Notes under the pieces: generated by a model | Told to the model about the DNA's origin: nothing | What the model saw: only the letters and a program-made list of their open reading frames with translations | Databases searched by the model: none | DNA from: Marnyiella aurantia | Lineage (GTDB): Bacteria; Bacteroidota; Bacteroidia; Flavobacteriales; Weeksellaceae | Direction of reading: 5' to 3' | NCBI RefSeq assembly: GCF_014041915.1 | Contig: NZ_CP059472.1 | Coordinates: forward strand, 1,736,001 to 1,800,000 | Length of the DNA: 64,000 nt | Program-made: the position numbers and the translations under genes | Shown here: piece by piece, positions 4,320 through 33,836 of the stretch | Position numbering within the stretch: position 1 is the first letter of the stretch | How the letters are laid out: each line of letters opens with the position of its first letter

Positions 4320-6521
4320 ATGTCCACGCTTAGATTTAACGCCCTTAAAGAACTTCCGTTCCGCAATTACAGAAAGGATAACTCAATTGAGGTTCCTAAA
4401 AAGCTGTCCGAACTCTTCTGTGAGAATGTTTTCTCAGAAGAAACAATGCGTGCTTACCTTACCAAGGAAGCTTTTACCTCTATACAGGACGCAATTAAGC
4501 GCGGCGCCAAAACACCACGTAATATTGCAGATCAGATTGCAGTTGCAATGAAGGATTGGGCTCTTTCCAAGGGTGCCACCCATTATACGCACTGGTTTCA
4601 GCCGCTTACAGGTTCAACAGCCGAGAAGCATGACAGTTTTTTCACACCTTTTGAAAGTGACCGCGCCATTGAAAGGTTTAACGGTAGCATGCTGATCCAG
4701 CAGGAGCCGGACGCCTCTTCCTTCCCTAACGGCGGAATCCGTAATACTTTTGAAGCTCGTGGTTATACTGCCTGGGATCCAACTTCTCCGGCTTTCATTA
4801 TAGGTACTACACTTTGTATCCCGTCTATCTTCATCTCCTATACAGGCGAAACACTTGATTATAAAACGCCCCTATTGCGTGCTATGCATGCGGTTGATGT
4901 TGCTGCTACCGATATCTGCAGATCCTACTTTGATAAGAATGTAACTAAGGTAATACCAACTTTGGGTTGGGAGCAGGAGTATTTCCTGGTAGACAGCGCT
5001 TTGTATCAGTCCAGACCAGATCTTGTACTTACAGGTAAGACAATGCTGGGACATTCGCCTGCAAAAGGTCAGCAGCTGGACGATCACTACTTCGGTTCTA
5101 TCCCGACCCGGGTGATGAATTTTATGAAGGAGCTGGAAATTGAGTGTATGAAGCTTGGTATTCCGGTTACTACACGTCATAACGAAGTAGCGCCCAATCA
5201 GTTTGAGCTGGCGCCGATGTTCGAGGAAACCAATGTGGCTGTGGACCATAACTCACTGCTGATGGATATTATGGCCAGGGTGGCGCATAAACACCACTTT
5301 CATATCCTTTTCCACGAAAAACCGTTTGCCGGCGTAAACGGAAGTGGCAAACATAACAATTGGTCACTGGCTACTGACACTGGCGAAAACCTGCTGAGTC
5401 CGGGCAAAAATCCAAAGAAGAACCTTCAGTTTCTTACCTTTTTTGTTAATACCCTGAAAGCTGTCCATGATTATGCGGATTTGCTTAGAGCAAGTATCGC
5501 GTCTGCAAGTAATGACCACCGTCTGGGCGCCAATGAGGCTCCACCTGCAATTATCTCTGCCTTTATAGGCTCACAGCTTTATTCTGTATTGGAGGAGCTG
5601 GAAAAAGTAACCGACGGTAAACTAAGCCCTGAAGAAAAAACGGACCTTAAACTTAATGTGGTAGGTAAGATTCCGGAAATCCTTCTGGATAACACAGACC
5701 GGAACAGGACTTCACCCTTTGCCTTCACGGGTAACAAATTTGAGTTCCGTGCCGTGGGATCATCTGCTAACTGTGCGGAACCCATGACTGCACTTAATGC
5801 CATAGTAGCCAGACAGCTTCAGGAGTTCAAGAAAAAGGTTGAGTATAATATTGAAAAAAAGAACCTGAAGAAGGACGAAGCGATATTTAATACCCTGCGT
5901 GAATATATTAAGGACTGCAAGAACATTATGTTCGAAGGGGACGGTTATTCGGACGACTGGGCGCAGGAAGCTGAAAAAAGGGGTATGAGTAACCTGAAAA
6001 CAACTCCCGAAGCTCTAAAAGAAGAACTAAACCAGAAATTTATTGACCTTTATGAAGGTCTTGGCATCTTTAACCACCGGGAGTTTGAAGCACGTAATGA
6101 GATCAAGCTTGAGAAATATTCTGCGGTTATAGATATTGAAGCAAAGGTACTTTCAGATATTGCCAGAAACCACATTATTCCTGCGGCTCTTAACTACCAA
6201 AACAGGCTTATTGAGAATGTAAAGGGGCTGAAGGAAATTTTTGGTGATGAGGAATTCAAACCATTGGCCAAGGAGCAGATGGAATTGATTCGCTCCATTT
6301 CCGCTAATGTATCAGATATTAAAACCGGTGTAGATGAACTGCTTAGTGCAAAAGAAGCGGCGCGTGCAACCATGGGAAGTCAGCAGCAGGCAGAAATGTT
6401 CTGTAATGATGTGGTTCCGCGTTTTGAAAAAATCCGTACTGCCAGTGATGAACTTGAGATGATGGTGGATGATGAACTTTGGCCCATGACCAAATACAGA
6501 GAGCTGCTGTTTACAAGATAA
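4320..6521 (+). CDS. glnN: Glutamine synthetase type III (GSIII)
   Basis: A 733-residue protein, the size expected for GSIII (about 700-730) and far longer than GSI. It makes glutamine from glutamate, ammonia and ATP and is the main ammonia-assimilating enzyme in many Bacteroidota. The GSIII-specific N-terminal domain precedes the catalytic core. The core shows GWEQEYFLVD (metal-binding Glu), the TRHNEVAPNQFELAP stretch, FHEKPFAGVNGSGKHNNWSL (glutamate and ATP binding) and NRTSPFAFTGNKFEFR (active-site Arg and Glu). The ATG at 4320 is chosen because it follows the promoter box and starts the usual MSTLRFNAL N-terminus. A terminator follows at 6542. Confidence 0.97.
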   Translation: MSTLRFNALKELPFRNYRKDNSIEVPKKLSELFCENVFSEETMRAYLTKEAFTSIQDAIKRGAKTPRNIADQIAVAMKDWALSKGATHYTHWFQPLTGSTAEKHDSFFTPFESDRAIERFNGSMLIQQEPDASSFPNGGIRNTFEARGYTAWDPTSPAFIIGTTLCIPSIFISYTGETLDYKTPLLRAMHAVDVAATDICRSYFDKNVTKVIPTLGWEQEYFLVDSALYQSRPDLVLTGKTMLGHSPAKGQQLDDHYFGSIPTRVMNFMKELEIECMKLGIPVTTRHNEVAPNQFELAPMFEETNVAVDHNSLLMDIMARVAHKHHFHILFHEKPFAGVNGSGKHNNWSLATDTGENLLSPGKNPKKNLQFLTFFVNTLKAVHDYADLLRASIASASNDHRLGANEAPPAIISAFIGSQLYSVLEELEKVTDGKLSPEEKTDLKLNVVGKIPEILLDNTDRNRTSPFAFTGNKFEFRAVGSSANCAEPMTALNAIVARQLQEFKKKVEYNIEKKNLKKDEAIFNTLREYIKDCKNIMFEGDGYSDDWAQEAEKRGMSNLKTTPEALKEELNQKFIDLYEGLGIFNHREFEARNEIKLEKYSAVIDIEAKVLSDIARNHIIPAALNYQNRLIENVKGLKEIFGDEEFKPLAKEQMELIRSISANVSDIKTGVDELLSAKEAARATMGSQQQAEMFCNDVVPRFEKIRTASDELEMMVDDELWPMTKYRELLFTR

Positions 6522-25725: not shown

Positions 25726-26247
25726 ATGAAAGCTTTGCTTTTCCTGCTTGCGCTGTTTGCCCTGCAGATGTGTACACAGATAAACCAACCCGAAAATACT
25801 AAAGTTATGCAAAATACAACCGAAAATCCTTATTACTCCAGGACAGACCGTACTAAACTTACCATAAGCAATGCTGAATGGAAAAATATACTCTCACCGG
25901 ATCTCTATGCCATTGCCCGCGAGGCCGATACTGAAAGACCATTTACCGGAAAGTATAATGAATTTGACGAACTTGGGGATTATTACTGTGCTGTTTGCGG
26001 CAATCATCTGTTCCGCTCCGATTCAAAATTTTCATCCACCTGTGGCTGGCCAAGTTTTTTCGAAGCTGATAAAGAAGGTGTAGCTTACAACCGCGACTCT
26101 ACTCATGGAATGGAAAGGATTGAAGTGGTTTGTAAGCGTTGCGATTCACATCTTGGACATGTTTTTAATGACGGTCCGCCACCAACCGGAATGCGCTATT
26201 GTATGAACTCAGTGAGCCTGGAATTCGTGGGTGACTCCCAAAAATAA
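25726..26247 (+). CDS. msrB: Peptide-methionine (R)-S-oxide reductase, lipoprotein form
   Basis: A 173-residue MsrB, which reduces the R-sulfoxide of methionine in proteins. The zinc-binding cysteines are all present (CAVC at 88-91 and CKRC at 136-139), with catalytic Cys159 in MRYCMNS and a possible resolving Cys106 in STCGWPS. Unusually for a cytosolic family, it starts with a lipoprotein signal (MKALLFLLALFALQMC, Cys16), so it probably repairs envelope proteins. Single-gene unit. Confidence 0.95.
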   Translation: MKALLFLLALFALQMCTQINQPENTKVMQNTTENPYYSRTDRTKLTISNAEWKNILSPDLYAIAREADTERPFTGKYNEFDELGDYYCAVCGNHLFRSDSKFSSTCGWPSFFEADKEGVAYNRDSTHGMERIEVVCKRCDSHLGHVFNDGPPPTGMRYCMNSVSLEFVGDSQK

Positions 26248-26332
26248 TAACAAATAGTAGCGAAAAAAATGTTAAATACTCTTAATTAGAGTTAAACTTT
26301 TGGGATCTAACTCCCTGAGAGATATTGTTATG

Positions 26333-26340
26333 TAATTTTG
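26333..26340 (+). promoter_or_regulatory. Flavobacterial -7 box for the L,D-transpeptidase-like gene
   Basis: TAATTTTG, 27 bp upstream of the ATG at 26368. Confidence 0.5.
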
Positions 26341-26367
26341 CCACACCAATCAATTTAACATAATAAT

Positions 26368-27117
26368 ATGCGCAAATTAATTTTGGCTGTATCAGCTACC
26401 TTTATACTGACTACCTCTTTTTACCGTGATACCCGTAATGATATTGTTGAAACCAGCATTGAAAATTCCGTGCCAGTTGCTGCTGTGCCTGGAGAAGAAG
26501 AAGTTTCTGCTGATCATGCTGCCGCTGAACTGTACAAAACCATAGACTTCGGAATGGGTAGCAAGATGAATGAAGAAGTTTTCCTGAAGGCTTTTTTGGG
26601 TTATTCAAATTTAAAAAATGCAGGAAAACTGGAGCACAGTGCAGGCATATTGACGGTTTGCGACTTTTCGCTTTCATCAACAAAGAAAAGATTGTGGGTT
26701 ATTGATATGAATTCTAAAAAAGTTCTGTTTAATGAGCTCGTAGCGCACGGAAAGAACACAGGAGAGGAGTTCGCTACAAATTTCTCCAATACCGAAAGTT
26801 CACTGCAGAGCAGCATGGGTTTCTATATTACAGAATCTACTTATAACGGGTCCAACGGTTACTCGCTGAAGCTTATCGGAATGGATAAAGGTTACAATGA
26901 TAACGCGTACAAACGCGCTATCGTAATGCACGGTGCAGATTATATAAGTGAGAACTTTATTAAGGCTCAGAACAGAATTGGGCGCAGTTGGGGTTGCCCG
27001 GCGGTAGCACGTGAGCTGGCTGAGCCAATCATCAACACTATTAAAGGGCAAAATGTGCTTTTTATCTATTATCCGGACCAGACCTATATGGAATCATCCG
27101 AGTGGCTTAAAGCGTAA
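26368..27117 (+). CDS. Murein L,D-transpeptidase catalytic domain family protein (YkuD-like)
   Basis: A 249-residue protein with an N-terminal export signal (MRKLILAVSATFILTTSF). Its catalytic region resembles the second YkuD-type family: VIVMHGADY-like strand with His188 and the nucleophile Cys210 in GRSWGCPAV. L,D-transpeptidases cross-link peptidoglycan stem peptides or attach proteins to them, but some members of this subfamily are uncharacterised hydrolases. Own promoter box and a strong terminator at 27135. Confidence 0.9.
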   Translation: MRKLILAVSATFILTTSFYRDTRNDIVETSIENSVPVAAVPGEEEVSADHAAAELYKTIDFGMGSKMNEEVFLKAFLGYSNLKNAGKLEHSAGILTVCDFSLSSTKKRLWVIDMNSKKVLFNELVAHGKNTGEEFATNFSNTESSLQSSMGFYITESTYNGSNGYSLKLIGMDKGYNDNAYKRAIVMHGADYISENFIKAQNRIGRSWGCPAVARELAEPIINTIKGQNVLFIYYPDQTYMESSEWLKA

Positions 27118-27182: not shown

Positions 27183-29855
27183 TCAGAACTTAAAGTCCAT
27201 GCCTAAATAAAAATTGGCCGGCATTATAGGTGCGTAAACCATTCCACCATCAAAATAATTTCCGAAAGGATTGGCTGCATCTATGATAGGATTGTCCTGG
27301 GTGAAGGACGTCAGGTTTTCACCACCCACATAAATTCTTATGTTTTTAGAAAAGTCCCGCGAAATCTGTGCGTTCAGTGTTACAAAGGAATCTGAAGACC
27401 GCGCCAGCTGGAATTCTGAAGGATTAGTGGATAAATTTGGGAGGTCCTGCTTTCCAACATATTGAAGTGTAGTGTCGAAAGACCAGAAAGCTTTTCCCTC
27501 GGTAGGTTGTGTGCTGTAGGAAGCATTGAAGAAGCCTCTGTTCTTAGCCATAAACGGGATGTTTCTTCTGCCATCCATATAATCTGCCTGAACATCGTAA
27601 AATTTGTAGGCCACGCGAAGATCCAGATTTTTTGCCGGTGAAAAGTCAAGCTGAGTCTGGAAACTGTTCGCAAAGGATTTACCGTTCAGGTTATAGAATA
27701 CAATTTTCTGTGGCGAAACATCCAGGTCTGTCAGCACCTGATTTTGGAAGTCCGTCCGGAAGAAATCGGCTACCAGCGTTGCTTTTCTGTTGAAAAGGTT
27801 AAATTCCTGCTGAAGGCTGGCACCGTAATTCCAAGCGGTCTCAGGCTTCAGGTCATAAATTTCACCGCTGCTACCCAGGATTTCGATTTGCCTGTTTGAT
27901 GCAAAATACTGTTGGTTTTCAGCAAAAACATTGGCGGTACGGAATCCCCGCCCGGCGGAAAGTCTCAGAATGGTCCTTGGAGTAAAGTCATATTTAAAAT
28001 TAACGCGCGGCGTGAACTGGGTACCAGCCAGATTGTGAAAATCGGCTCTGGCACCTGCTACCAGTGTATAGTTTTCACCTGTAAGGGTGTATTCCAGAAA
28101 CAGCCCGGGAACAGTTTCCGTGCGGTTATAATTATCCTGAAGGTAAACCTCGTCAAATCTGTCGAACAGGAAACTTGCGCCTGTTTTGTACTTATGGTTG
28201 GTGTTCCCCAAAATGCTCTCAAAAATCAGATTTGAATAAAAGGTGCTTTGCTTGCCCAGATAATTCCTGTTTCCGAAGAAACTGTCCTGCTCATGATGGC
28301 TGTATTGGTTCATCCAGCCAATGCTTTGGTAAGGTTTTCCTTTAAAAACGTATCCTGTTTTGTTCCAGATATCAAACTTTTCGAGGTCGATGCCGATTCC
28401 GTAAAGAGTCTGTTGTGACTGATCGGTATGTCTGTCAAAGTCTTTCTGTCCGCCGTTACGTTCGTCTTTAACAAAGCTGATCCCGAAATGAGTTCCCAGG
28501 CCTGTATGTTCCAGATCATTATAATTAAGCAAATAAGCGGCGTTGATCTGGTTTCCTGTAGGTTGGTCCAAAAAGCCGTCGTCATTGGTATCCATCTTCG
28601 CCACGGTCGCGTTTCCGTGCAAAAGTACCGTCTGAGACCAATGTTCAGTCAGTGCGTTGGTAGAGGTTATATTTGTTTCAAATCTTCCGTTGGCATCGGC
28701 AAAGAAATTAATTGCTGTTTCGGGCGTACCCTGAAATTTCAGAAATTCCGTATTTATTTGTCCGGTGATACTTTCGTATCCATTGGTCACCGTACTGCCA
28801 CCTTTAGTCAATTGGATGCCACCAATCCAGCGGCCGGGAATCAGGTTCAAGCCATAAGGTGAAGCCAGTCCCCGAATGGAGGGAAGAAGTTCTCTTGTAA
28901 GTGAGGTGTATTTCTGGTCCAGACCCAGCATTTTCAGCTGTTTGGTGCCTGTAACAGCATTGCTGAAAGAAACATCTACGGTCGCATTGGTTTCGAAACT
29001 TTCCGAAAGGTTACAGCAGGCCGCCTTCAGCAATTCCTTCTGACCGATATTGAAGGTTAGTCCGGCCGATTTCCGGCTTAATGATGTCGCTTCTTCACGT
29101 TTTGTGATAAGAACTCCATCTATATTATGGTCAATATGATCCTTATGCTGTGTAAAATCCTTTTGAGGTTGCTGTTCATCGTCATGCACTAAATCACTCT
29201 TTACTCCGAAAGCAAGTTCACGGTCGTAAAGGCAGCAGCCAGGTAAAGCATTATAGACAGCATCTTTGGCCAGAAATTTTTCATTGTCGTGACCTGCTTC
29301 TGCAATTTTCTGCAAAATTATGTCTGATGAGGTTTTAGCAGGGTCGAATTCCAGAACTACAGTCTGAGTTTCAGAGTTCCAGTTTGCGCCGGACGCGCCG
29401 GCTTCTTTTGCCGCTTTTTCAATCCTGGCTTTGCAGGAACCACAGTTTCCTTTTACAAAAAAAGTGTTCGTCGGCAAAGCTGTTAGATTGTTTACGGGTT
29501 GTTCCGGACTCTTTATGAGTGACGGTGTTCTTTCATACAGGCAGCAGCCCGGAAGGTTTTTGTATACTGTGTCTGGCGCAGAATACTTCTCATTGTCATG
29601 ACCCACATCTGCAATTTTTTTTAATAGGGTGTCTCCTGTAACTGTGGAGGGGTCATATTTCACACTTAGAGTTTGTGTGGCGGCATTCCAGTTAGCGGAG
29701 GTGGCGCCCGCATTTTTCGCGGTAGTTTCAATTCTGTCTTTACACATACCGCATTCGCCTTTCACTTTAAAGGTTGATTCGGTAATGGTTTGGGCAGCTA
29801 TAGTTTGGGTAAGGAATAGGGTGATAATAAGAATACTTCTTAATAAAGTTTTCAT
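27183..29855 (-). CDS. TonB-dependent receptor with two N-terminal heavy-metal-associated (HMA) domains
   Basis: An 890-residue outer-membrane receptor with a signal peptide (MKTLLRSILIITLFLTQTIAAQ). Two tandem HMA units follow: unit 1 has CGMC (Cys35, Cys38) and unit 2 CGSC (Cys138, Cys141). Each is trailed by an AGHDNEK or VGHDNEK segment and an LPGCCLY dicysteine (104-105 and 207-208). A His-rich link (HKDHIDHN) leads to the plug, which carries a further KAACCNLSE dicysteine. The beta-barrel ends in LGMDFKF with terminal Phe. HMA domains bind Cu(I) or similar soft metals, so uptake or sensing of copper is likely but not proven. It is last of three same-strand genes with metal-ligand-rich products. 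Confidence 0.92.
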   Translation of the reverse strand: MKTLLRSILIITLFLTQTIAAQTITESTFKVKGECGMCKDRIETTAKNAGATSANWNAATQTLSVKYDPSTVTGDTLLKKIADVGHDNEKYSAPDTVYKNLPGCCLYERTPSLIKSPEQPVNNLTALPTNTFFVKGNCGSCKARIEKAAKEAGASGANWNSETQTVVLEFDPAKTSSDIILQKIAEAGHDNEKFLAKDAVYNALPGCCLYDRELAFGVKSDLVHDDEQQPQKDFTQHKDHIDHNIDGVLITKREEATSLSRKSAGLTFNIGQKELLKAACCNLSESFETNATVDVSFSNAVTGTKQLKMLGLDQKYTSLTRELLPSIRGLASPYGLNLIPGRWIGGIQLTKGGSTVTNGYESITGQINTEFLKFQGTPETAINFFADANGRFETNITSTNALTEHWSQTVLLHGNATVAKMDTNDDGFLDQPTGNQINAAYLLNYNDLEHTGLGTHFGISFVKDERNGGQKDFDRHTDQSQQTLYGIGIDLEKFDIWNKTGYVFKGKPYQSIGWMNQYSHHEQDSFFGNRNYLGKQSTFYSNLIFESILGNTNHKYKTGASFLFDRFDEVYLQDNYNRTETVPGLFLEYTLTGENYTLVAGARADFHNLAGTQFTPRVNFKYDFTPRTILRLSAGRGFRTANVFAENQQYFASNRQIEILGSSGEIYDLKPETAWNYGASLQQEFNLFNRKATLVADFFRTDFQNQVLTDLDVSPQKIVFYNLNGKSFANSFQTQLDFSPAKNLDLRVAYKFYDVQADYMDGRRNIPFMAKNRGFFNASYSTQPTEGKAFWSFDTTLQYVGKQDLPNLSTNPSEFQLARSSDSFVTLNAQISRDFSKNIRIYVGGENLTSFTQDNPIIDAANPFGNYFDGGMVYAPIMPANFYLGMDFKF

Positions 29856-29923
29856 CGTTAAAATTTAGATTAATTAAAAGAAAATTTGCTCTAAGGACGG
29901 ACCTTAGGCATAGACTCAGGAAA

Positions 29924-30289
29924 TTAACCTATTTTGGGAGGTTGCCAGATTCTGGCAGTCGGATCGGAAAAGTCCGGACTTAAGTAGCAAAAATCCATAT
30001 CGGAACGGCCTGCAACCAAAAGCCTGGTTACAGTGAGAAGTTCCGGTGTAACGGATGAGAATACTGATGTTGATGTACAGGTACGGCAGCTGCTACAATC
30101 GCTACCACAGGATTTCTTATCTTCACCATGGCAGGGCTTCGGATCTTTCTGTTCAGAAGGACAGCAGTCGCCCAATCCGGTTGTTGTGCAGCAGGATTGT
30201 GGCTTAATTTGGGCAAAGACGTTCTGTTTGGGTATAATAAAAACACCCAAACAAAAAATAATCACCAATATGTGAAGTTTCCTTGCCAT
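29924..30289 (-). CDS. Cys-rich secreted protein of the heavy-metal receptor locus
   Basis: A 121-residue protein with a signal peptide ending near NVFAQ. The mature part has ten cysteines, including two CC pairs (SCC, DCC) and a dense SCGSDCSSCRTC cluster, plus a conserved-looking IWQPPKIG C-terminus. The pattern (CC pairs and terminal PP) resembles small proteins found beside copper-related TonB receptors in Bacteroidota, sometimes called HYC_CC_PP proteins; I make that link with low certainty. It lies 68 bp upstream of the HMA receptor on the same strand. A metal-binding or metallochaperone role is inferred from the cysteines and context. Confidence 0.7.
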   Translation of the reverse strand: MARKLHILVIIFCLGVFIIPKQNVFAQIKPQSCCTTTGLGDCCPSEQKDPKPCHGEDKKSCGSDCSSCRTCTSTSVFSSVTPELLTVTRLLVAGRSDMDFCYLSPDFSDPTARIWQPPKIG

Positions 30290-30297
30290 TTATGGCG

Positions 30298-30305
30298 CAA
30301 AATTA
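30298..30305 (-). promoter_or_regulatory. Flavobacterial -7 box for the Cys-rich protein and receptor
   Basis: Reads TAATTTTG on the minus strand, 8 bp before the start at 30289; near-leaderless. Confidence 0.45.
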
Positions 30306-30311
30306 CGAATT

Positions 30312-30971
30312 TTATTTTAACGGTGCACCAACAGCTATGTCGCATCTGTGCCCGGGCTCACCGTGTGCAGGATTAAGTCCCGCCTTACCGCTGGCTGCGG
30401 CTGCAGGTTTACTTGCAACGTTATAAGCCATGGGGTCTGGAGTAGACTTGGCTGGTACTATACCCGCAGGTGCTGCAGTGCTGGTTGTGCTCTTCGCAGG
30501 GCTGTTAAGCGGGGCTCCTACTGAAATATCGCAACGGTGTCCTGGCTGTCCGTGTGGCGGGTTCATACCCGGAGCAGTGGACGGAGCGGGAGCAGGTGTT
30601 ACATTATAAGCAGCCGGATCTTTCTGAGCGGAGTTCGGAGTTATACTCTGTGGAGCTGCTGCAGGAGTTTTCGCTGCTGAATTTAAGGGCGCACCTACCG
30701 GAATTTCGCACTTATGTCCAGGCTGTCCGTGTGGAGGGTTAGTGCCGGGCGCTGTCTGCTGTACACCAGCTGTTGGCTGAGACGCTCCTGGAACTGAGGA
30801 AGTAACGCCAGCCGGCAACAGCATATTTGATGCCTGCGTTTTAGCCGCATCGGAATTGGTATTTGCAGAAGTCGTAGTGGCTGAATCTTTCAGATAGGTC
30901 GGCTTCTGGTTTTTTTCGCATGAGCTAAGTGCCAAAACGGCACCAAGTATAAATAGTGTGCTAATTTTCAT
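30312..30971 (-). CDS. Lipoprotein with three repeated His/Cys motifs
   Basis: A 219-residue lipoprotein (lipobox ALSSC, Cys18). The mature chain is Ala/Pro/Ser/Thr-rich and looks disordered. It carries three copies of a motif approximating NPPHGQPGHRCDIxVGAPLN, starting near residues 78, 137 and 200, with DPxAYNV linkers between them. The two histidines and one cysteine in each copy are invariant. Single copies of this motif occur in small flavobacterial lipoproteins (from memory). The ligand set suggests Cu or Zn binding; that is inference. It lies 22 bp upstream of the Cys-rich protein gene, and its promoter box is at 30991. Confidence 0.75.
   Translation of the reverse strand: MKISTLFILGAVLALSSCEKNQKPTYLKDSATTTSANTNSDAAKTQASNMLLPAGVTSSVPGASQPTAGVQQTAPGTNPPHGQPGHKCEIPVGAPLNSAAKTPAAAPQSITPNSAQKDPAAYNVTPAPAPSTAPGMNPPHGQPGHRCDISVGAPLNSPAKSTTSTAAPAGIVPAKSTPDPMAYNVASKPAAAASGKAGLNPAHGEPGHRCDIAVGAPLK
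30315..30383 (-). repeat. Third copy of the His/Cys motif repeat
   Basis: Residues 197-219 of the lipoprotein, the C-terminal end: NPAHGEPGHRCDIAVGAPL. Confidence 0.85.
30504..30572 (-). repeat. Second copy of the His/Cys motif repeat
   Basis: Residues 134-156 of the lipoprotein: NPPHGQPGHRCDISVGAPLN. Confidence 0.85.
30681..30749 (-). repeat. First copy of the His/Cys motif repeat
   Basis: Residues 75-97 of the lipoprotein: NPPHGQPGHKCEIPVGAPLN, the most diverged copy (Lys and Glu replace Arg and Asp). Confidence 0.85.
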
Positions 30972-30990: not shown

Positions 30991-30998
30991 CAAAAGTA
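30991..30998 (-). promoter_or_regulatory. Flavobacterial -7 box for the His/Cys-motif lipoprotein gene
   Basis: Reads TACTTTTG on the minus strand, 19 bp upstream of the start at 30971. Confidence 0.5.
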
Positions 30999-31573: not shown

Positions 31574-32260
31574 TTAGTTTTTCACCAGCAGGCGGAAACC
31601 TTCACCGTGTACGTTTATGATTTCCAGGCCTTCATCGTCACGAAGGAGTTTGCGGAGTTTAGCAATGTATACATCCATACTTCTCGCTGTAAAGTAGTTT
31701 TCCTTTTTCCAGATTTTCCTTAGTGCCAGATCGCGGGGCATGAAATCGTTCCTGTGCTGGCATAGGAGTTTCAGAAGTTCATTTTCCTTAGGAGAAAGCT
31801 TATACTCGTTATCTCCTACCCGGAGTTGGCGCAGCATGGAATCAAAAAAGATATTACTGATCTTGAACTGTTCCTGCTCGTCATTCTCCACAGCGGCACT
31901 GCGCTGCAGGATGGCTTTAATTTTATAAAGCAGCAGTTCCGTGTCGAATGGTTTTGTTATATAATCGTCGGCACCTAACTGGTAACCCTTCAGGATGTCT
32001 TCCCTTAAATTTTTGGCGGTAAGAAAGATTATTGGGGTGTTCTTATCAATTTTCTTTACATCCTCAGCTAATGAGAAGCCGTCTTTTTTCGGCATCATCA
32101 CATCAAAGATGCAGATGTCGAATTCATTCTCTGTAAATTCCTTTAAGCCCTGCTCCCCATCAACAGCGAGTGTTACCTCAAAATTATTGATGGTTAAGTA
32201 GTCCTTCAGAACTGCACCAAAACTTTGGTCATCTTCTACCAGTAGGATCCTGTTATTCAT
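31574..32260 (-). CDS. rprY: OmpR/PhoB-family response regulator (RprY-like)
   Basis: A 228-residue response regulator. The receiver domain has the acidic pocket EDD at 9-11, phosphoacceptor Asp53 in IFDVMMP, Thr81-type switch in FLTAK and the conserved Lys in YITKPF. The C-terminal winged-helix DNA-binding domain (about 130-228) contains YKLSPKENELLKLL and RSMDVYIAKLRKLL. It lies 25 bp downstream of the sensor kinase and is co-transcribed with it. Similarity in layout and sequence to Bacteroides RprXY supports the name; target genes are unknown. Confidence 0.9.
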   Translation of the reverse strand: MNNRILLVEDDQSFGAVLKDYLTINNFEVTLAVDGEQGLKEFTENEFDICIFDVMMPKKDGFSLAEDVKKIDKNTPIIFLTAKNLREDILKGYQLGADDYITKPFDTELLLYKIKAILQRSAAVENDEQEQFKISNIFFDSMLRQLRVGDNEYKLSPKENELLKLLCQHRNDFMPRDLALRKIWKKENYFTARSMDVYIAKLRKLLRDDEGLEIINVHGEGFRLLVKN

Positions 32261-32285
32261 TATGTTATTTTTTAGTTTGTTTGCA

Positions 32286-33836
32286 TTATAATACCTGATT
32301 CATAGGCAGTTTTATGGTAAAGGTGCTTCCTTTGCCTTTGCGCGACTCCACCAATACCTGTCCTTTGTGGAGTTCAATTATTTTCTTCACGTAAGACAAG
32401 CCAAGTCCCTGGCCTTTCACATTGTGAATGTTACCTGTTTCCTCGCGGAAGAATTTGTCGAAAATCCTTTTATTGTTGTCTATGTCCAGACCAATTCCCC
32501 TGTCTGAGATTTCAATGACATACCAATTGCCTTCATTTTGGGTTTTTACAAATATTTCAGGTGTTTCGGGTGAATATTTATTCGCATTATCCAACAGATT
32601 GATCAGCGCGTTTGAGATATGAAATTCATCCACTTTTACAATGTAACGGTCTGCCGTGAATTCCTGTTCCAGTGTGCCGTTACGCTGTGCGATGATGAGT
32701 CCGAAACTTTCAGTAATCTCCTTAATAAGATTGCGGAGGTTGGTTTCCTTCAGGAAAAGCTGCACTTCATTTCTTTCCAGCTTGCTCATGTTCAGTACGT
32801 TTTCCACCTGCTTTTTCATGCGCAGATTTTCCTGTTTTATAAGCTGTGAATAGTATTTCACCTTTTCCGGATTGGTGGCAATCTTATCATTAGCAAGTGA
32901 ATCAGTAGCTACCGAAATAGTGGCCAGCGGTGTTTTGAACTCATGCGACATATTATTGATGAAATCTGTTTTAACCTCAGCAATTTTCTTCTGCCTCATC
33001 ATGTAGTTAATGGAGATGATGTAGATTCCCAAAATGGTTAGTAAAGACATGAAGGTACCCAACAGCATGGGAAGGTTGTTTTTTGCCAGAGAATATCCCT
33101 TTCTGGGGAAAACTAAAGAGAGACTGTACAAAGTTCTGTCTCTGCTGTCTGCAAAAAGAGGATAGGTATAGCTGTCCGCATTTTTTTCAACCTTATAAAT
33201 TTCGTTGGCTACCGAAGTCAGATTATTCTTACTGTCCATAATTCCATAACCAAACTTGGTATCTATGCCCTTAAGTCGGAGTTCACGGGAGACCACAGAG
33301 TCCAGGATCGCCGGAACCACGCGCTTTTCCACCGGCAGATTACTCCCACTTAGTTTTGCAAATTCCCGCAAAGTAAATTCGCCACTTTGGATAGACCGGT
33401 TCAGGTCTTCTGTAAGAAGTTCGGGTGCTGATGAATCCCTGCGCAGACGAATCAAGGCTTCGTCTGTATACATAGTGGTTACCTTCAGGCTGTCGCCGCG
33501 CTGCGAAATAGGAATATCCTTATTTTCTATGATGTTTTTGGAATACGTAATGGTCCGGCGGCTGGCAGAGTCTTCCACCTGCTGTATGGCAGTCACTGAA
33601 GGCTGCGTGCTCCCCATTACATCCTTATTCAGATTTTTGTACTGAGCGTAATATTTTTCCACCTCAATATCAGTCATTTTTTTTGCTGATGACTCCAAAG
33701 CCGCATGCACCTTATTGGAGAAATCCTGCTCCAGGGCTTCATAATAGCTCTTCAGCCAGTAAAACTGGAGCGCAACGAAGACCACAAGGGATATCGTCAT
33801 AAATACTGATATAATTGGGATAAATTTGTTATTCAT
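32286..33836 (-). CDS. rprX: Sensor histidine kinase (RprX-like)
   Basis: A 516-residue membrane kinase: membrane helix 1 at about 8-28, a periplasmic sensor region of about 225 residues without a recognised ligand motif, and helix 2 at about 256-279. Then follow a HisKA domain with phospho-accepting His298 in NNMSHEFKTPLATI and a C-terminal ATPase domain (NALINLLDNANKYS N-box, DRGIGLD, GQGLGLSYVKKI). It signals to the adjacent response regulator. No promoter box was found in the A/T-rich upstream region. Confidence 0.92.
   Translation of the reverse strand: MNNKFIPIISVFMTISLVVFVALQFYWLKSYYEALEQDFSNKVHAALESSAKKMTDIEVEKYYAQYKNLNKDVMGSTQPSVTAIQQVEDSASRRTITYSKNIIENKDIPISQRGDSLKVTTMYTDEALIRLRRDSSAPELLTEDLNRSIQSGEFTLREFAKLSGSNLPVEKRVVPAILDSVVSRELRLKGIDTKFGYGIMDSKNNLTSVANEIYKVEKNADSYTYPLFADSRDRTLYSLSLVFPRKGYSLAKNNLPMLLGTFMSLLTILGIYIISINYMMRQKKIAEVKTDFINNMSHEFKTPLATISVATDSLANDKIATNPEKVKYYSQLIKQENLRMKKQVENVLNMSKLERNEVQLFLKETNLRNLIKEITESFGLIIAQRNGTLEQEFTADRYIVKVDEFHISNALINLLDNANKYSPETPEIFVKTQNEGNWYVIEISDRGIGLDIDNNKRIFDKFFREETGNIHNVKGQGLGLSYVKKIIELHKGQVLVESRKGKGSTFTIKLPMNQVL

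Follow-up and report, generated by a model that had tools for sequence, protein, structure and literature searches.

Introduction

Metal-sensing leaders of the CutF and CruR kind and TonB-dependent receptors (TBDRs) for copper are already known elsewhere, and they are the closest described counterparts of the locus analyzed here, a minus-strand leader-TBDR gene group in a 64,000-nucleotide stretch of the Marnyiella aurantia genome (contig NZ_CP059472.1, positions 1,736,001 to 1,800,000; hereafter the window). In the CutF/cutO system of Rhodobacter capsulatus, a stem shields the start of the next gene, and the proposal is that a ribosome paused at a C-terminal Pro-Pro (PP) motif of a small exported Cys-containing protein opens it (PMC9973294). 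The CutF motifs are 45 residues apart, a spacing that the authors think may be critical, and CutF-like leaders are not all copper-specific (PMC9973294). The accompanying survey placed 40% (normalized) of CutF-like proteins in Bacteroidota, with TonB-like proteins as frequent neighbors; in the part of that article available to us, no worked-out Bacteroidota case was found (PMC9973294). In Bordetella, binding of copper to the CXXC motif of CruR (DUF2946) ends an arrest at RAPP and shuts off a copper TBDR via Rho (PMC9426467). The receptor concerned, CrtA/BfrG, imports copper and has been linked to heme-copper oxidases (PMC12914433). TonB-related upstream open reading frames (uORFs) with RAPP or RGPP are described as universal in Gram-negative bacteria, and by the available account copper-related ones were not found in Bacteroidota (PMC12992588). 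Among copper TBDRs, OprC of Pseudomonas binds copper via ligands in plug and barrel (PMC8610252).

The window locus consists of three consecutive minus-strand genes, ordered 5' to 3' as a lipoprotein gene, a Cys-rich open reading frame (ORF) and a TBDR gene, with intergenic gaps of 22 and 68 nucleotides (nt). A first-pass annotation, made from the sequence of the window, had described these genes as encoding products rich in metal ligands, and the ORFs were found as described. It had also proposed that they form a complete three-part module for outer-membrane capture and hand-over of copper or another soft metal, and that the system is undescribed. Our analysis points to a different division of labor. 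We consider it probable that this is a copper-acquisition locus of Bacteroidota in which the importer is under leader-peptide control.

The Cys-rich ORF resembles CutF in encoding a small, putatively exported Cys protein with a C-terminal PP, in the same-strand metal-handling gene that follows, in a predicted stem shielding the start of that gene and in a motif spacing of about 45 residues. It is unlike CutF in its C-terminal motif and in its target: CutF regulates a multicopper oxidase and copper raises synthesis, whereas a TBDR or HMA gene comes next here (PMC9973294). As with CruR, the leader ORF here heads a probable copper TBDR operon (PMC9426467, PMC12914433), and the CXXC-to-PP distance in CruR, 51 as computed from positions in PMC9426467, compares with 47–49 in most of our loci. 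CruR differs in its RAPP motif and Rho readout (PMC9426467). The RAPP/RGPP uORFs likewise encode small secreted products upstream of TBDR genes (PMC12992588), but neither motif occurs in the last 40 residues of any of our 77 leaders, and the window leader has WQPPK. Unlike the window TBDR, CrtA is described in the available text as having no conserved Cys or Met, and HMA is unmentioned there (PMC12914433). OprC would share with the window TBDR a Cys ligand in the plug of an outer-membrane copper receptor, but uses CxxxM-HxM in plug and barrel wall (PMC8610252), whereas the window TBDR has fused HMA domains and a plug with a CC pair at its N-terminal edge. The proposed copper TBDR of Bizionia argentinensis also belongs to Flavobacteriia and, in contrast, was assigned by an OprC-like motif (PMC11213822). 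The claim of an undescribed system thus stands only in part: its general elements have precedents, and no publication on the leader-TBDR operon, its stem or HMA-fused TBDRs was found among the top-ranked literature matches.

Results and Discussion

Pairing between the leader end and the next start

A total of 88 loci were inspected, comprising the window and 87 relatives collected from the neighborhoods of TBDR matches; a contig scan with the Cys-rich protein as query found just three relatives. The family of the window contributed 48 loci (L041–L087 and the window), of which 44 carry a leader of the WxPPK type, L045 carries none and L085–L087 carry another leader type. These last three were counted with a group of 43 loci (L085–L127), 33 of which gave a leader.

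In the window, the outer stem between the leader end and the TBDR start is a perfect 10-bp helix with G-U pairs counted (Table 1). Covariation across the loci shows a predicted pairing of the leader end with the initiation region of the next gene. The outer stem recurs in the folded leader-TBDR gaps, where the 5' arm begins at most a few nt downstream of the PP codons and the 3' arm usually lies just before the next start, covering the start codon itself in L049, L050 and L082. The same anchoring, to PP and stop on one side and to the next start on the other, also holds where the next gene is the HMA gene.

Since AT-rich arms slip in sequence alignment, an alignment-free arm-swap test was used, in which the 24 nt after PP were matched with the 46 nt around the next start and each genome's own arms were compared with those of other genomes. 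In a first run with 41 loci, the observed sum was reached by 0 of 20,000 permutations. With the 44 WxPPK loci, own arms scored 25.3 per locus against 18.7 for permuted arms (standard deviation 0.54, best permutation 21.5, 0/20,000), and a dereplicated set of 32 loci gave 25.4 against 18.0 (0/20,000). Decoys in the 44-locus set gave 9422/20,000 for an arm before PP and 5001/20,000 for an arm inside the next gene, and shuffled 3' arms scored 17.1. Seven start codons in this set had been moved, by a rule on CxxC position and not by RNA pairing. A perfect helix of at least 8 pairs was present in 38 of the 44 loci, compared with 36% of shuffles.

For 31 loci of the other leader type, own arms scored 25.9 against 18.9 (0/20,000), with shuffled arms at 19.4 and one of the two decoys at 6336/20,000. 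This set took three loci from the window's family and 28 from elsewhere, with the arm around the stop allowed up to 48 nt; L100 and L118 were left out because their gaps were too short. A further 38 loci from families f2 and f8 gave 27.7 against 20.9 (0/20,000), decoys of 1205 and 2106 of 20,000, and 20.8 for shuffled arms. They were the usable ones among 41 (L168 and L173 had no leader by rule and the gap of L181 was too short), used the same arm settings, excluded HMA proteins as leaders, and excluded L152, L179 and L182 as coming from genomes already used. The genomes of this set are new, but families f2 and f8 were already represented among the other-type loci. Relatedness is not fully removed by comparing own with permuted arms, and the 32-locus set, the decoys, the shuffled arms and the further 38 loci were intended to deal with it. 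Among other gene pairs on one strand in these loci, the mean score was 15.8 (n = 84), against 25.4 for leader pairs (n = 42, Mann-Whitney p 2e-16). Of three weak Rfam matches (E ≤1), none fell on the stem, and all scored well short of the gathering threshold.

Bacteroidota mRNAs are largely without Shine-Dalgarno sequences. In L104, L105, L106 and L113, a purine-rich stretch resembling a Shine-Dalgarno sequence precedes the next ATG, and by eye the last codons of the leader look complementary to it.

The Cys-rich gene as a probable leader

The window leader carries 11 cysteines in 121 residues. The first, at residue 13, falls in a hydrophobic N-terminus that looks signal-like by eye, and the other ten lie after it, in agreement with the ten that the first-pass annotation had counted in the secreted protein. 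In an alignment of the 44 WxPPK-type leaders, P117, P118, K119, C33 and C65 are invariant, and P20, C34, C61 and W115 are conserved in at least 90%. The remaining positions vary, with 19–55% identity to the window copy across 43 relatives. In the comparison with G004, the nearest relative of the window, identity is 55% for the leader (L041) and 90% for the TBDR. The start of the last CxxC lies 45–52 residues from PP in 36 of 44 loci having CxxC, and 47–49 residues in 29 of these 36. The window leader also agrees with the rules for CutF-like proteins in length (≤150 residues), in the place of PP (≤15 residues from the C-terminus, here three) and in having a same-strand gene within 1000 nt, here the TBDR gene 68 nt on. 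A further feature, known from CutF itself, is a stem shielding the next start; it is present computationally, yet undetected by RNAalifold.

The leader appears to have its own promoter. The motif TAnnTTTG, which we take to be the -7 motif of Flavobacterium promoters, is present between -70 and +30 relative to the leader start in 39 of 44 loci, 30 of them at -13 to -19, compared with 67 of 228 other genes. In the 70-nt stretches before the next gene, it occurred in none of the 44 loci. Because the box lies before the leader and none lies before the TBDR gene, the TBDR is most likely transcribed from the leader's transcript. Taken together, the conservation pattern, the promoter box, the PPK motif and the covarying stem make the Cys-rich gene look like a regulatory leader rather than the capture or hand-over component that had been proposed.

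Profile searches with the window leader returned no family in Pfam (E ≤0.1, DUF2946 included) or NCBIfam. The HYC_CC_PP family protein (NCBIfam NF047658) matches 28 of the 33 leaders of the other type, which hold the same place with the same kind of predicted stem in other lineages. Unlike these, the WxPPK type is nearly free of matches to this model (1/44, at E 0.01), and the window leader gave none. No publication naming HYC_CC_PP was found in the literature searched. DUF2946 matched none of the 33 other-type leaders at E ≤1. Weak matches of WxPPK leaders went to the CzcI model (5/44, best E 5e-5) and to spore_III_AG (6/44, best E 0.002), besides other single ones. When profiles of the two leader types were compared, no more than 7 columns could be aligned, and thus common descent is not demonstrated; as judged from these comparisons, the two types agree in plan and place but not in demonstrable sequence. 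In some loci the gene after the leader encodes about 240 residues, and in L095 it starts with an HMA-like CxxC; in L154, L155, L159 and others, the gene after the leader is known by length alone (239–243).

The receptor and its HMA domains

The barrel of the window TBDR matches PF00593 (Pfam, E 2.9e-28, 100 bits against a cut-off of 27). Pfam returned no plug match, yet the alignment of the family profile to 9gbc_A (E 1e-16), which among solved chains is nearest in sequence, extends through the plug and places a CC pair of the TBDR at its N-terminal edge. In TBDRs this edge faces the periplasm, and the CC pair of the window TBDR would do so too. Across the phylum, the pair is present in 87 of 88 TBDR sequences, mostly within CC[ND]L[SAG]ES, and in a 55-sequence alignment A279, C280 and C281 are invariant while H413 and H607 reach 90%. 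The OprC-type elements CxxxM and HxM occur nowhere in the window TBDR.

PF00403 matches the TBDR above cut-off in two stretches (E 9e-13; G000 1765286–1765462 and 1765598–1765771), which are the sole PF00403 matches in the whole window genome (G000, 2.61 Mb, single contig) at E ≤0.001. With cysteines at 35/38 and 138/141 (CxxC) and at 104/105, 207/208 and 280/281 (CC), the earlier description of two CxxC HMA domains and three CC pairs is borne out. Two CopZ models were the best NCBIfam matches of the HMA part, though under their cut-offs. The number of fused HMA domains per TBDR ranges from 0 to 3 in the 88 loci. Where no domain is fused, a free exported HMA protein of about 115 residues is often encoded immediately before or after the TBDR. 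A fused or neighboring HMA was found by rule in 71 of 88 loci and by eye in seven more (L088, L092, L110, L117, L119, L120 and L121). Because HMA swaps between fusion and neighboring gene, there is good evidence, drawn from gene arrangement, that HMA and TBDR would work together in the periplasm. The theme of soft-metal uptake at the outer membrane is supported, with copper as the most likely metal. As separate observations, the TBDR of L068 (G030) carries three fused HMA-type CxxC motifs, and broken TBDR genes were seen in G340, where the gene is split by a stop, and in G014, where only a 240-residue piece with a stop is left.

Elsewhere in the window genome, five PF00122 matches mark P-type ATPases, three of them with CPC. 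The nearest lies about 88 kb off, in line with the earlier statement that no P-type ATPase is adjacent. Two PF00115 (heme-copper oxidase) matches were obtained, one of which adjoins a CPC-type ATPase and would be cbb3-type by gene arrangement. The PF02630 (SCO) profile gave two matches, both below cut-off. The genome is therefore likely to contain copper users, and it yielded no additional chaperone of the PF00403 type. The CPC-type ATPase at G000:C1 407586 (L033) has an N-terminal part with repeated CPVC motifs.

Distribution, linkage and the lipoprotein

With the window TBDR as query, matches were found in 188 of 197 family genomes (E 1e-40) and in 65 of 247 genomes across the phylum (E 1e-60). 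TBDRs of relatives, used as queries at E 1e-100, gave matches in family f2 (76 of 120 genomes) and in family f8 (14 of 60). An upstream leader is present by rule in 77 of the 88 loci. The lipoprotein is present in 111 of the 197 family genomes and in 19 of 247 genomes of the phylum sample. For 107 of these 111 genomes the distance to the TBDR could be counted, since four TBDR places were not listed; in 100 of them the lipoprotein gene lies within 2.5 kb, at spacings of 24–348 or 451–832 nt, and in seven it lies elsewhere. In the inspected loci it stands either upstream of the leader or directly downstream of the TBDR. The genes remain together across genera, so the conserved linkage anticipated by the first-pass annotation was found in related genomes. 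Its complete three-part module was not: in 12 of 12 g34 genomes with both genes, the lipoprotein gene lies more than 100 kb from the TBDR or on another contig. The conserved core is leader, TBDR and HMA, and the lipoprotein is an add-on whose tie to the TBDR is limited to part of one family.

The window lipoprotein has a lipobox-like SSC by eye and no Pfam match above cut-off, and the three HxxxxHxC copies reported earlier were seen as three HG.PGH[RK]C repeats. After the lipobox, some relatives have CKKDE, which fits C-X-K-(D/E)2-X, the surface signal of Capnocytophaga lipoproteins (PMC5080379); the window copy, CEKNQ, does not fit. The protein would be an envelope metal binder. L131–L140 show the HxxxxHxC lipoprotein away from the TBDR in g34 genomes, and in six of these loci (L131, L132, L133, L135, L138 and L140) no copper gene was evident near it by eye.

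Table 1. Features of the leader-TBDR locus in the window (all on the minus strand; positions are those of the window)
Feature	Position	Strand	Remarks
5' arm of outer stem, TAGGTTAATT	29922..29931	(-)	Spans the last codons and stop of the leader
3' arm of outer stem, AATTAATCTA	29866..29875	(-)	nt -20 to -11 of the TBDR start
Inner hairpin between the arms	29887..29910	(-)	Window fold; RNAalifold in 24 relatives
Pro-Pro codons 117-118, proposed stall site	29936..29941	(-)	PPK invariant in 44 leaders of the WxPPK type
Leader ORF (Cys-rich)	29924..30289	(-)	121 aa; signal-like N-terminus, CC / CC / CxxCxxC, C-terminal IWQPPKIG
TAATTTTG, presumed Flavobacterium-type -7 promoter box	30298..30305	(-)	16 nt before the leader ATG
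TBDR	27183..29855	(-)	890 aa; signal-like N-terminus, HMA1, HMA2, plug with near-invariant ACCNLSES, barrel
Two HMA domains, predicted periplasmic	29286..29771	(-)	CxxC at residues 35 and 138; CC pair after each, at 104 and 207
Codons A279-C280-C281, N-terminal plug edge	29013..29021	(-)	CC kept in 87/88; A-C-C invariant in the 55-sequence set
Lipoprotein	30312..30971	(-)	219 aa; three NP.HG.PGH[RK]C[DE]I.VGAPL repeats
TACTTTTG, possible -7 box of the lipoprotein gene	30991..30998	(-)	Single observation in the window
RprY-like response regulator and RprX-like histidine kinase	31574..33836	(-)	Neighbor genes; candidate link only

Proposed mechanism and alternative explanations

We propose that the TBDR would carry copper, free or chelated, across the outer membrane. 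The plug-edge CC pair and the periplasmic HMA domains would receive the metal leaving the barrel, hold it as Cu(I), and pass it to cuproenzymes such as heme-copper oxidases. On the regulatory side, the ribosome translating the leader would pause at the C-terminal PPK, with the CxxC region newly emerged. While paused, it would cover the 5' arm, leaving the 3' arm unable to block the initiation region, and the TBDR (or HMA) gene would be translated. Copper binding by the nascent leader would end the pause, the stem would close, and synthesis of the importer would fall. We infer copper as the substrate, stalling at PPK and the sign of the response; copper is expected to lower expression, as would suit an importer. 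In the least certain step, the lipoprotein may act as an accessory envelope metal-binding protein.

In its wider form, this proposal would give Bacteroidota their own phylum-wide class of metal-sensing nascent-chain leaders, made up of HYC_CC_PP and the WxPPK type, with stall motifs other than RAPP/RGPP, opening a stem that blocks initiation and controlling a copper importer with its own HMA acceptors. We lean slightly toward this generalization. If true, HYC_CC_PP, a family without assigned function, would gain a role, and the idea of an importer with a built-in metal acceptor would become open to experiment. Small Cys-rich exported proteins would then have to be annotated with caution, as they may be nascent-chain sensors and not metal carriers. 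Bacteroidota, for which no copper-related RAPP/RGPP leaders are known by the available account (PMC12992588), would have another leader type.

Several results weigh against these proposals. Regarding the stem, six of the 44 loci lack a perfect helix of at least 8 pairs (L047, L053, L056, L072, L073 and L076), the decoy inside the next gene is raised in the 31-locus set (194/20,000), and in the 38-locus set three gaps exceed 300 nt and at least one leader, that of L195, is doubtful. The window's own 3' arm ranks only 15th of 44, because relatives share the motif, and the fold of the window gap (z -2.6) is milder than that of many loci. RNAalifold on a MAFFT alignment of 42 loci gave no consensus structure, and with 24 loci it recovered the inner hairpin only (8 pairs, 6 with two-sided changes), the outer stem being unseen. 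Regarding the locus, 11 of 88 loci gave no leader by rule, L045 having none, and 17 of 88 had no HMA by rule. The second PF00115 match in the window genome contains a stop within its frame, which lessens the point of copper demand. Finally, the precedents differ in sign, as copper raises the downstream product with CutF and lowers it with CruR.

Among the alternatives, the same leader logic could be read out at transcription, by Rho-dependent termination, instead of at translation initiation. CruR, with its similar motif spacing, regulates a copper TBDR in this way (PMC9426467), but the position of the 3' arm, which falls in the initiation region of the downstream gene and in the three loci named above covers its start codon, is what a translation block predicts, and mRNA structure is reported to tune translation in Flavobacterium johnsoniae (PMC6847099). 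We regard a Rho readout as unlikely. A similarly low probability is assigned to a substrate other than copper, whether another soft metal (zinc, silver or nickel) or a metal chelate not specific to copper. Several soft metals bind CxxC-type sites, and the weak CzcI matches of five leaders, among other weak matches, are in keeping with such a substrate, as is the mixed metal specificity of CutF-like leaders (PMC9973294). The HMA part argues for copper instead: its best NCBIfam matches are the two CopZ models, below their cut-offs, and CxxC HMA modules favor Cu(I).

Somewhat more doubtful is the idea that the Cys-rich protein functions as a secreted carrier of metal, with the three products forming a capture and hand-over chain. 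The ten cysteines after the signal-like region and the conserved linkage to the TBDR fit a carrier; its divergence does not, given the identities of 55% for the leader and 90% for the TBDR toward G004 and the spread of leader identities over 43 relatives, and a covarying stem and an invariant PPK have no role in a carrier. That the stem is a generic terminator or mRNA-stability hairpin unconnected to leader translation is very improbable: intergenic hairpins are common and the arms are AT-rich, but a score of 22 is reached by only 7 of 84 other same-strand gene pairs against 37 of 42 leader pairs, and the arms are anchored to the leader's PP codons and stop and to the next start, HMA gene included. 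An intrinsic terminator alone was rejected, as such pairing is rare between other same-strand neighbors in these loci. Leader-peptide control of translation initiation for a copper importer remains our preferred reading.

Neighboring genes

The earlier statement that no cytosolic regulator is adjacent holds only partly, as an RprY/RprX-like pair lies upstream on the same strand (Table 1). One small gene on the opposite strand (DUF3887) separates this pair from the lipoprotein gene, and the RprY model scored 298.5 bits on the response regulator, under its cut-off of 370. Genes with lengths like those of the RprY/RprX pair occur upstream in a number of relatives, with the sequences seen for L057–L060. 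Downstream of the TBDR gene, and convergent with it, lie genes for an L,D-transpeptidase (YkuD_2) and MsrB. These occupy 25726–27117 as an MsrB lipoprotein and the YkuD_2 L,D-transpeptidase, and MsrB-like ORFs recur near the TBDR in many loci of the family.

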